DNA from: Halomicroarcula saliterrae
Lineage (GTDB): Archaea > Halobacteriota > Halobacteria > Halobacteriales > Haloarculaceae
Reading direction: 5' to 3'
DNA: 64,000 nucleotides
Assembly (NCBI RefSeq): GCF_031624395.1
Contig: NZ_JAMQON010000002.1
Span: forward strand, 310,001-374,000
A program made the translations under genes and the position numbers. Shown in pieces: positions 25,827 through 61,603 of the stretch. The stretch's first letter is position 1, and every line of letters begins with the position of its first letter. The notes under the pieces were generated by a model. That model worked only from the letters and a program-made list of their open reading frames with translations, did not search any database and was not told the origin of the DNA.

Positions 25827-26915
25827 TCAGTTTCCGCTCCGGCCCGGGGCCTCGTCGGCCCGGTCCCCGCCGGCACCGTCGCTGCCCGAGCCACTGCCTT
25901 TCGTGTCGTCGCTGCTCGACCCACTGCCCTTGGTGTCGTCGCCGCCCGACCCACTGCCCTTGGTGTCGTCGCCGCCCGACTCACTGCCCTTGGTGTCGGG
26001 GCCGTTCGACCGGTCGGCAGCGCCGCCCTCGCTCCCGTCGGTCGCACCGCCAGCGCTGTCCGGTTGACCGGCAGCGGACGTCTCGTTCGTGGCGGTATCG
26101 CCGCCGCCCGACGACCCGGGTGCTTCGCTGCGGTCCGTGGACTGGCCGGGCCCGTCCGTCCGGTTCGCCGCCTCGCCGCGCTCCTCGCTCCGGTTCGCCG
26201 TCTCGCCGCGCTCCTCGCTCCGGTTCGCCGTCTCGCCGCGCTCCTCGCTCCGGTTCGCCGGTGGGCCGCGAGCGTCGTCGGGCGGGCCACGCTCACCGGC
26301 CTCGTCAGGTGGACCGCGAGCGTCGTCGGGCGGACCACGTTCACCGGCCTCGTCTGGTGGCCCCCGGTCAGCCGGCGGACCGCCGCCCAGCCCACGGGCG
26401 ATGGCCGCGACTTCCGGTCCGTCGAGTTCGCTCGCGTTCTCGCGGAGCCGCTCCAGCCGGCTGTCGTTCACACCGGCCCGGGCGGCCGCCTCGTCGGTGT
26501 CGTTCACCGCCGCTCGCAGGCCGTCGATACGGGCGCTGAGCCGGCTCTGTCTGGCGATGTAGGCCGGCTGTGGGAGCGAGCCGTTCTCGTACTCCGCCCG
26601 GAGGCTCTCGTTCTGGCGCTGGAGTCGGTCGAGACGCCGTTCGAGCGTTCCGGCCCGGTCACGGACGAGATTGGTCCGCTCACCGGCGTCCGACTGGTCG
26701 AACCCCGCCCGCCACATCCCGTTCTCGACGGAGTCGTTGGCCGCGGCCGAACTGGACTGGGTGAACGCAGTCAGCTGCGCTCCCATGCCGGCGGTTCCCC
26801 CGCTCCCGTTGGTCGTGTTCCGAGTCGCCGTCGCGGTCTCCTGGGCCATGATAGTCGGCGAGACCAGCAGCGCGACGGCGACACACACCACGAACACTGC
26901 GTGCCGGTTGGTCAT
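25827..26915 (-). CDS. Secreted protein with coiled coil and three tandem-repeat blocks
   Basis: The 362-residue product has a signal peptide (cleaved near TIMAQ), a helical region (about 75-165) with heptad-like Leu/Arg spacing, and a disordered acidic C-terminal half built of repeats. These are a 16-residue Gly-Pro-Pro-Asp unit twice (185-216), NRSEERGETA three times (221-250) and a DTKGSGSGGD-like unit four times (307-346). Asn-X-Ser/Thr sites are frequent, so the tail may be glycosylated. No anchor is seen. The function is unknown; a cell-surface or matrix role is possible. Confidence 0.72.
   Translation of the reverse strand: MTNRHAVFVVCVAVALLVSPTIMAQETATATRNTTNGSGGTAGMGAQLTAFTQSSSAAANDSVENGMWRAGFDQSDAGERTNLVRDRAGTLERRLDRLQRQNESLRAEYENGSLPQPAYIARQSRLSARIDGLRAAVNDTDEAAARAGVNDSRLERLRENASELDGPEVAAIARGLGGGPPADRGPPDEAGERGPPDDARGPPDEAGERGPPDDARGPPANRSEERGETANRSEERGETANRSEERGEAANRTDGPGQSTDRSEAPGSSGGGDTATNETSAAGQPDSAGGATDGSEGGAADRSNGPDTKGSESGGDDTKGSGSGGDDTKGSGSSSDDTKGSGSGSDGAGGDRADEAPGRSGN
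25878..25997 (-). repeat. Four in-frame copies of a 30-base coding repeat
   Basis: Residues 307-346 of the secreted protein repeat the motif DTKGSGSGGD four times with small changes. The DNA copies are nearly identical, suggesting recent slippage. Confidence 0.8.
26166..26255 (-). repeat. Three in-frame copies of a 30-base coding repeat
   Basis: Codons 221-250 give NRSEERGETA three times. The DNA copies differ at only one or two positions, so the array is recent or being homogenised. Confidence 0.85.
26268..26363 (-). repeat. Two in-frame copies of a 48-base coding repeat
   Basis: Codons 185-216 give the 16-residue unit GPPDEAGERGPPDDAR twice. The unit is itself a doubled eight-residue motif. 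All copy lengths keep the frame. Confidence 0.85.
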
Positions 26916-50638: not shown

Positions 50639-51897
50639 AACGGACGCTGTATGGTGTCGTCGCCGTGGTACTCGTCGCGGTACTCGCAGCGCCGGCGGTA
50701 GCTGAGCCGGCGACCACGTCGATAACCGGCCCGACCCAGGTGCAGCCCGGCGACACGGTCACGTACACGTTCACCGTGACGAACACCGGCGGGAACGAGA
50801 GCGGCTACCTGCTGGACGCCACCCTGCCCGACGGCTGGGCGATAGTCGAGCGGAGCGACGACGGTGGTCGGTGGAAGGCCTCGGAGAACCAGTGGCTCTG
50901 GCTGTCGATAGAGCCTGATATCACGAAGGCGACCTCACTCACGCTCTCGGTACCGGCCAACACGAGCGCCAGTAGCGTGACAGTCACGTCCCGGGCCTCC
51001 AATAGCGACGGGCTGCAGGACGTCGCGACCAAAGAGGTGACTGTCGAGGACGACGACGGGTCGGGCGGCGGCGGGTCCGACGACGGCGGGACCTATGGCG
51101 GCGGGTCGGATGACGGTGGCCCCTCCGACAGTGAGGCGAACGCTACCGGCAGTGAGGCGAACGCCGCCACCGACAGTGAGACGAACGCCGCCACCGACAG
51201 TGAGCAGAACACCGCGACCGGCAGTGAGCCAGACCCCAGCACCGAGAGCGAAGCGGTCGGTACAGCGGGCGGCTCCGCGTCCGAGCCCACCGACGAGTCC
51301 GCGACGGACAGCGCGTCCGAGACCGGCGACGAAGCGGGGGCTTCGGACACTGGAGGCGGGACGAACACCGCCCTCGGGATGGGGATCGGAGCACTGGTGG
51401 TGCTTGCTGTCGGGGTCGGTATAGGTACCGCCCGGTGGAACGCGGCTGGCGAGTCGGCGGCGACTGACACCGCGAGTGGCGACGTGGAAGCCGAGTCCGG
51501 GACGACCGCGAGTGACGACGTGGAAACCGAGTCCGGGACGACCGCGAGTGGCGCTACCGACGACGGCGTGTCGGCGTCAGGTGACGAGGGCGGAACGGGG
51601 GACATCGACGTGCTCGATTTACAGAAGGGATCGGCCGAGTGTACGATCACGTATTCGACGGCCGAGACGAGCAACAAAGCGATCGGTGACGAGATACGGG
51701 AGATAGCGCAGGGCTACGCCTCGGCCGGCGCCGACGATATCGGAACCCAGCGGTTAGAGGCGACGATTACCGACGGGGAGCAGACGGTGGCCACGTGGCA
51801 CATCCGCAGCGAGTGGCTGTGCCAGCTCGAAAACGGGGAACTGTCCGCGGAGACGTTCGAACGGAAGGTGCTGGGGACGATCTGTTTCAGTAGCTGA
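50635..51897 (+). CDS. Receptor-like membrane protein with conserved C-terminal domain
   Basis: The 420-residue protein has a signal peptide (about 1-24) and an outer CARDB/NEW3-like beta-sandwich domain (about 25-138: GPTQVQPGDTVTYTFTVTNTG). A Gly/Ser/Asp then Asn/Thr/Ser-repeat linker (140-240) leads to one membrane helix (246-264). Inside, a second linker with a doubled 12-residue repeat (283-306) is followed by a compact domain (323-420). That last domain is duplicated as the upstream pseudogene, so it is a mobile module in its own right. Function is unknown; the layout suggests outside sensing or adhesion with inside output. Confidence 0.78.
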   Translation: MKRTLYGVVAVVLVAVLAAPAVAEPATTSITGPTQVQPGDTVTYTFTVTNTGGNESGYLLDATLPDGWAIVERSDDGGRWKASENQWLWLSIEPDITKATSLTLSVPANTSASSVTVTSRASNSDGLQDVATKEVTVEDDDGSGGGGSDDGGTYGGGSDDGGPSDSEANATGSEANAATDSETNAATDSEQNTATGSEPDPSTESEAVGTAGGSASEPTDESATDSASETGDEAGASDTGGGTNTALGMGIGALVVLAVGVGIGTARWNAAGESAATDTASGDVEAESGTTASDDVETESGTTASGATDDGVSASGDEGGTGDIDVLDLQKGSAECTITYSTAETSNKAIGDEIREIAQGYASAGADDIGTQRLEATITDGEQTVATWHIRSEWLCQLENGELSAETFERKVLGTICFSS

Positions 51898-60591: not shown

Positions 60592-61023
60592 ATGAGCAAG
60601 CGTATTCTCGTCCCGGTCGACGGCTCCGAGCAGGCCGCGGTGGCCACGGCGTTCGCGGCCGAGAACTTCCCCGACGCGACGCTGGTACTCTTTCACGTCA
60701 TCAACCCCGCCGAGGCGGGCTACAGCGCGCAGGCGTCCGTGCCGTCCTTCTCCGAGGAGTGGTACGAACAGAAGCAGACGGAGGCCCGGGAACGGTTCGA
60801 CGAGCTGGCGGCCGTCGCCCGCGAGGCCGGCGTCGAGACGGTCGAGCGGGTGGTAGAGGTCGGCCGCCCGACCAAGACCATCGTCGAATACGCCGAGGAG
60901 AACGACATCGACCAGATCGTCATGGGAAGTCACGGCCGGTCGGGGATGTCCAGAATTCTGCTGGGTAGCGTCGCCGAAATCGTCGTTCGGCGAGCGACCG
61001 TTCCGGTGACTGTCGTGCGGTGA
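60592..61023 (+). CDS. Universal stress protein A-like
   Basis: The 143-residue single UspA domain has a complete nucleotide-binding loop near its end (MGSHGRSGMSRILLGSVAEIVVRRATVPV), so it should bind ATP, unlike many degenerate copies. It is convergent with a second UspA gene at 61160, with a 34-base tandem repeat between them. Confidence 0.92.
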   Translation: MSKRILVPVDGSEQAAVATAFAAENFPDATLVLFHVINPAEAGYSAQASVPSFSEEWYEQKQTEARERFDELAAVAREAGVETVERVVEVGRPTKTIVEYAEENDIDQIVMGSHGRSGMSRILLGSVAEIVVRRATVPVTVVR

Positions 61024-61051
61024 GCGGCGCCGAGTCCGTGTGACTCACTCA

Positions 61052-61168
61052 CCGCGAATCTGCGTGAGAAAGCGCGGCTGTATTGCCGCGAATCTGCGTG
61101 AGAAAGCGCGGCTGTATTGCCGCGCTTACGCGTGAGAGAGCGCGGCTCACCTGCCGCGCTCACGCGTG
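61052..61168. repeat. 34-base tandem repeat of phased hairpins between two UspA genes
   Basis: Three complete 34-base units (61052-61085, 61086-61119, 61120-61153) are followed by a partial fourth reaching 61168. Units one and two are identical; unit three is diverged. At each unit border a GCGCGGC arm pairs with GCCGCG(C/A), giving 6-7 base-pair stems with 6-base loops (TGTATT twice, TCACCT once). The array overlaps the last codons of the minus-strand UspA gene. Confidence 0.88.
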
Positions 61169-61603
61169 CCGTATTATATACACGTCGTACCCCGGGTCCT
61201 CCGAGACGGGGGCGCCGACACTCGACACCGGCGAGGAGACGCGCCCGGCGTTCTCGCTGCCGATGAAGACGACGGAGGCCTCGACGTCGTGGGCGACCGC
61301 GCGGATGGTCCGTATCACGTCGGTCGTGATGGAGGCCATCGAACTCACGTCCTCGGGAATCTCGTAGCGGAAGTCGGCCTCGGGGGCGATGTCCGCGACG
61401 CGGTCGCGGAGCCGGTCGGCGATGGCGTCCGGGTCGAACGGGTCGTCGGCGTCGAGCCAGTTCCGCGAGAGTGCGTACTCCGGCTCGTCGGGGACGACCG
61501 TCAGCGCGACCACGTCCTCGCCGGTGAACTCCGCGAACTCGGTGGCGCGTTCGAGGGCGGCTTCCGAGAGCTCCGAGCCGTCGAAGGGGACGAGTAGCGT
61601 CAT
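61160..61603 (-). CDS. Universal stress protein-like, diverged nucleotide loop
   Basis: The 147-residue UspA-fold protein begins MTLLVPFDGSELSEAALERA. The C-terminal nucleotide loop is altered (FIGSENAGRVSSPVSSVGAP in place of the GxxGxxG-S pattern), so ATP binding may be weak or absent. It differs in this respect from the convergent copy at 60592. Final codons lie within the tandem hairpin array. Confidence 0.85.
   Translation of the reverse strand: MTLLVPFDGSELSEAALERATEFAEFTGEDVVALTVVPDEPEYALSRNWLDADDPFDPDAIADRLRDRVADIAPEADFRYEIPEDVSSMASITTDVIRTIRAVAHDVEASVVFIGSENAGRVSSPVSSVGAPVSEDPGYDVYIIRHA

Follow-up and report, generated by a model that had tools for sequence, protein, structure and literature searches.

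The window, a stretch of 64,000 nucleotides from a Haloarcula genome (Halomicroarcula saliterrae, GCF_031624395.1, contig NZ_JAMQON010000002.1, positions 310,001-374,000), carries two convergent universal stress protein genes, uspA and uspB, with a tandem array at their facing ends (Table 1). The three 34-base units plus a partial one described in a previous sequence-only reading were confirmed: the first two (61052-61085 and 61086-61119) do not differ, the third (61120-61153) has 74% identity, and a partial copy extends to 61168. The third unit has indeed an altered loop and flanks and a retained stem. As for the claim of stems at fixed spacing, the spacing itself held (34 and 34 bp), but the placement of the hairpins within the units did not, as they straddle the unit borders. 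Similarly, the array does lie between convergent usp genes, yet it is not purely intergenic: its final nine bases (61160-61168) are the uspB stop codon and last two codons, and the right arm of the gene-proximal hairpin takes in two bases of this stop codon. We regard a 94-aa open reading frame at 61083-61367 as spurious, since it overlaps uspB on the opposite strand and was not selected by our codon model.

Table 1. Features of the usp locus, in window coordinates.
Feature	Position	Strand	Evidence and remarks
uspA, universal stress protein, 143 aa	60592..61023	+	Pfam PF00582, E 1.2e-38; convergent partner, left
uspB, universal stress protein, 147 aa	61160..61603	-	Pfam PF00582, E 1.4e-11; convergent partner, right
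uspB stop codon TGA, within the array	61160..61162	-	ORF reading
34-bp tandem array, 3 units and a partial copy	61052..61168	.	repeat search; TRF score 157
Hairpin 1, 6-bp stem CGCGGC/GCCGCG, loop TGTATT (61079-61084)	61073..61090	.	stem search
Hairpin 2, 9-bp stem AAGCGCGGC/GCCGCGCTT, loop TGTATT (61113-61118)	61104..61127	.	stem search
Hairpin 3 (gene-proximal), 9-bp stem GAGCGCGGC/GCCGCGCTC, loop TCACCT (61147-61152)	61138..61161	.	stem search

The hairpin core, CGGCTSNNYTGCCG, occurs three times in the window, always within the array (0.17 occurrences expected; 0 of 100 shuffles reach three). The array folds better than dinucleotide shuffles on both strands (z-scores of -6.7 and -5.25), values that are this strong partly because shuffling breaks up the repeat itself. 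When the host genome was searched for the array unit at E<=10, no second copy was found at E<1. Two other tandem-repeat clusters of the window, at 25877-26376 and 51049-51550, have periods that are almost all multiples of three and are probably coding.

The array arose from the uspB gene end by tandem duplication. Its remaining units contain diverged copies of the uspB 3' end, and across the nine hairpin-bearing usp loci of the genus 19 of the 23 hairpins are followed by GCGTG, a sequence from the end of uspB. Hairpin spacing at these loci is 34 bp, except for 70 bp in genome G016 and one instance of 30 bp in G011. The gene-proximal hairpin has a 9-bp stem in all seven usp loci with multiple hairpins, and the non-proximal ones have stems of 3-6 bp, the single exception being the middle hairpin of the host genome (9 bp). 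At most loci the stems of the remaining copies are short, at 3-7 bp, so these extra copies may be by-products. The duplication joints probably lie inside the hairpin, such that internal copies would pair left and right arms of different hairpins, which fits the 9-bp proximal versus shorter internal stems. A polarity is also seen when arrays of two or more hairpins are read in the direction of the loop T[GC]NNYT: the longest stem comes last in 12 of 16 arrays, is tied in four and is never contrary. Orthologous arrays in this count are interdependent, representing about five or six distinct loci, and it excludes the lrp gene arrays of mixed orientation (G022 and G017) as well as that part of the 468k locus which runs in minus orientation. 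A hairpin of another family, in G158, shows the same habit as the usp array: at C1:599447-599549 (L249), a post-stop hairpin with a nine-base loop lies in three tandem 37-bp units that hold a copy of the gene end and stop codon. The same nine-base-loop hairpin lies behind another gene of this genome (C1:1557376, L163).

To follow the locus across the genus, we searched 32 genomes, recovering loci for 30 of them, with both genes readable in 29 (G025 and G030 gave no locus, and G026 no uspB within the locus). The hairpin is present in nine of the 29, answering the question, raised by the sequence-only reading, of whether homologous loci share it; here the stops lie 62-188 bp apart, with two or more hairpins in seven genomes and one in two. 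The same hairpin is present in the named records H. pellucida, H. rara, Halomicroarcula rubra and H. amylovorans. In 17 genomes the stop-to-stop gap is 0-2 bp, and the others have 9 bp (G013), 36 bp with a different single hairpin, as judged by eye (G015), and 106 bp without the core (G028). In a two-gene tree, a single branch (support 96/94) parts the nine hairpin loci from the 17 loci with abutting stops. G013 and G028 fall on the hairpin side despite having no such hairpin, so that one gain with later losses and several gains are both possible.

The structure is conserved in these relatives, so the lack of conservation named by the sequence-only reading as evidence against it was not observed. 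In an alignment of the orthologous gene-proximal hairpin (eight rows, seven distinct), 60 of the 63 stem cells of the distinct rows pair (95.2%), compared to at most 52.4% in slid controls. Compensatory changes, proposed earlier as a check, were found as well: both sides changed at three of the nine pairs, one of which lies inside the uspB stop codon (TGA with G-C, TAA with A-T), and two-sided changes occupy 8 cells versus 3.2 in shuffles, with 1 of 500 shuffles as high. Likewise, a cross-locus alignment of 30 selected rows holds 42 two-sided cells versus 17.0 in shuffles; its rows were selected partly on the five inner pairs, the outer pairs playing no part, and pairing continues beyond the core with differing sequences. 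Of four measures based on counts of pairs or types, two stay within the shuffle level in these two alignments. The array and its hairpin are real and shaped by evolution.

What shaped them is less clear-cut, as all changes between standard pairs at the orthologous hairpin are two-sided, with zero one-sided G-U steps. Template switching at inverted repeats is described as yielding such two-sided changes without selection (PMC8794818), and the lack of one-sided intermediates means that template switching in DNA would also fit. The earlier claim that the structure matters is therefore upheld as to the paired stems and the three two-sided pairs, but template switching can mimic this pattern. Wobble pairs point to no preferred RNA strand (14 G-T versus 27 A-C among 46 distinct units). 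The main and serious rival to a functional reading, which we consider less probable though well worth entertaining, is a neutral minisatellite. Inverted repeats are prone to slippage, unequal crossing-over and template switching, and under this reading such events would copy the unit and repair its stems, so that arms change together and loops invert in the absence of selection while the array itself has no function. It draws further support from unequal copy numbers in close relatives (five hairpins in G017, two in G022) and from other, unrelated intergenic arrays in the 854 kb of the host genome that were read. Mutation alone, however, leaves unexplained why unrelated loci share one loop consensus and why the hairpins sit behind stop codons; moreover, the gene-proximal stem has 9 bp throughout, more than most of the others.

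Within the genus, the loci that share this loop came from pattern and model searches; those read include lrp, a site upstream of a ferredoxin gene and the 468k locus. The core, with its loop T[GC]NNYT, recurs mostly directly after stop codons and 32-35 bp apart; it lies behind lrp, a response-regulator gene and a gene that precedes one for a small membrane protein, and in another genus it occurs where two genes converge. Since a reversed control was commoner than the pattern in the genus, the raw count is no evidence, whereas the tandem spacing is. At lrp, 5 of the 30 genomes read have the core (G022, G017, G026, G025 and G028), the host genome has two other hairpins and G009 has one. By eye, six of the 30 (G022, G017, G025 and G028 with this core, G009 and the host with other hairpins) have hairpins in the interval from the lrp stop codon to a conserved stretch, TGTTCTCCGTT, and T-runs are common there in the remaining genomes. 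Of 30 genomes read at the ferredoxin locus, two have the core (G022 and G017); the host has this gene pair but not the core. At E<0.1, the host genome has the three array hairpins and one more at C4:409471; the maximum is 13 matches, in G022, spread over a handful of loci. An order-wide model search matched 19 of 293 genomes (18 besides the host) at E<=0.05 per genome, close to the chance expectation of 0.05 x 293 = 15, and we therefore counted only tandem matches in other genera. Tandem copies with this loop were found there only in G234 (two loci, spacing 34 and 33) and G237 (one, 33). In G237 a 12-bp stem finishes at the stop of a minus-strand gene, as at usp, and the 3326k array of G234 lies between divergent genes; the tandem array of G158 has a different loop. 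Among L001 and 11 further loci, Rfam yielded nothing credible (two listed matches fall under the gathering score), and we found no earlier description of the hairpin repeat in the open-licence literature.

We also searched for the stem with a free loop (CGCGGCN6GCCGCG) and classified 35 sites lacking the family loop from six genomes, i.e., the host, G022, G017, G009, G025 and, for one of its two sites, G026; the set includes neither the sites of G028, G002, G010, G011, G016 and G019 nor two sites with a TGCGGT loop that belong to known loci of the family. Seventeen sites are coding and 18 intergenic, by our own codon model rather than a published gene finder, as for the gene calls at other hairpin loci and host-genome arrays. 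Sixteen of the 18 intergenic sites belong to another, longer dispersed element of more than 120 bp, in which a hairpin is followed by a conserved stretch with CCTGCCCTTCCCCG and then GCGCGGC-ACGGAG-GCCGCGC, many copies having an A-run at the far end. It is mostly intergenic, often between convergent genes, and occurs in the host genome G000 (C1:343374, L237; C7:114589, L243), G022, G017, G009 and others. When as many as two mismatches are allowed, a 24-letter pattern matches in 11 of 32 genus genomes (control 0). Rfam gave no credible match in the eight loci scanned, and the element may be an unnamed structured RNA. The host genome also holds a period-36 tandem hairpin array beginning directly after a stop codon (C1:221715-221891), a period-45 hairpin array between divergent genes (C2:281148-281328) and a period-58 tandem array (C1:154325-154512) followed by a tRNA-like stretch, the start of which its units seem to copy; ARAGORN found no tRNA there.

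Occupation of the same core's loci in differing subsets of the genus, together with both loop orientations within one lrp array, could reflect a small REP-like mobile palindrome that lands at gene ends and is then multiplied in tandem. We consider this unlikely, as there are few loci per genome, the flanks beyond the stem are mostly unshared between loci (by eye; a short TGTCCCG is common to two), and no Y1 transposase was found in the hairpin-bearing genomes G009, G010, G234 and the host. The array does resemble bacterial REP elements of the GTAG and CGTC families as described in PMC3733652, which are short palindromes between genes, in some cases clustered, with 5-13 bp stems and possibly forming hairpins in RNA; it too is an extragenic palindrome able to form a hairpin. 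It differs from the elements described there in its tandem direct repeats, few copies and variable outer stem sequence with a conserved loop, and in having neither a terminal tag nor a Y1 transposase in its genome. By eye, GTAG, CGTC and their complements are absent from 61052-61168. RAYT (Y1) transposase association is given as a trait of GTAG REP families (PMC3733652); PF01797 had 0 matches in the host genome, and 4 of 8 genomes searched have one. With neither tag nor transposase, and only the few host copies listed above in place of many dispersed ones, REP membership was rejected. The SMRs of Haloquadratum, as described in PMC3119063, are likewise short haloarchaeal repeats without a transposase gene, but measure about 80-110 bp, have inverted terminal repeats and often lie inside other mobile elements, unlike the 24-bp hairpin behind genes seen here. 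The array is a variant of intergenic palindromic repeats that is itself new.

That the core is the part conserved across loci in the alignment could alternatively mean that a regulator reads GGCTSNNYTGCC as a double-stranded DNA site. This is very improbable, as pairing reaches outside the core with different sequences, which a duplex site would not need, and the sites are mostly behind genes rather than at promoters. A protein bound in register, suggested by the sequence-only reading, is also unlikely: spacing is 34 bp here and in the range 32-35 bp at most of the other loci, and loops within one array need not share an orientation. The DNA helix has 10.5 bp per turn, so 34 bp make about 3.2 turns, and with the spacing differing between loci we rejected helical phasing as unlikely.

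Taken together, place, symmetry and structure suggest, with a probability of roughly 0.5, that the array is a gene-end hairpin enlarged by tandem duplication and acting as a two-way RNA 3'-end structure. The hairpin would have stood directly behind the uspB stop, and a 34-bp piece comprising the uspB end and the hairpin would have been duplicated in tandem into the array. Because it is nearly palindromic, the hairpin could fold in the mRNA of either convergent gene. There it would mark the 3' ends of both mRNAs, shield them from 3' exonucleases and slow or partly terminate the polymerase, so that neither transcript would reach far into the facing gene as antisense; transcription through the array and any factor reading the conserved loop are likewise presumed. 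Against this 3'-end reading, 17 of the 29 genomes manage with 0-2 bp between the usp genes, G013 and G028 lack the hairpin within its clade, and one G234 array lies at divergent genes.

It is possible that the array ends both transcripts, as the sequence-only reading had proposed. A scan of 60900-61300 for a stem followed by a T-run returned no T-tract terminator, and by eye 61052-61168 contains no run of five T. In Haloferax, T stretches are described as the strong intergenic termination signal (PMC7237163), and, as they are absent at the array, partial termination or protection would be expected rather than sharp termination. The same study describes a hairpin upstream of RNA 3' ends that terminated 59% in vivo (PMC7237163), a partial haloarchaeal signal like the one proposed here, although the hairpin tested was single and within a coding region. 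The array also resembles the bacterial hairpin-cluster terminators of PMC8355165, in which two or more adjacent hairpins lie shortly after stop codons and poly A/U trails are stated to be unnecessary; it differs in facing an archaeal polymerase, in its tandem copies with a common loop and in that its terminating role is putative.

More speculatively, and in our estimation improbably, the hairpins could make up a haloarchaeal family of their own, as yet unnamed, with the loop T[GC]NNYT as a putative recognition site, either for an RNA-binding protein or nuclease that sets the 3' ends of facing genes, or for a single-stranded DNA enzyme whose nicks lead to directional tandem duplication. The nicking version would account for the polarity of stem length described above.

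To our knowledge, little is known about how the transcripts of convergent genes are kept separate in archaea. The usp locus is a natural experiment in this respect, as related species have this gene pair either without a spacer or with anything from one to five hairpins between the genes. Its hairpin also offers a clear case for telling selection on RNA structure from the mending of DNA palindromes by template switching.
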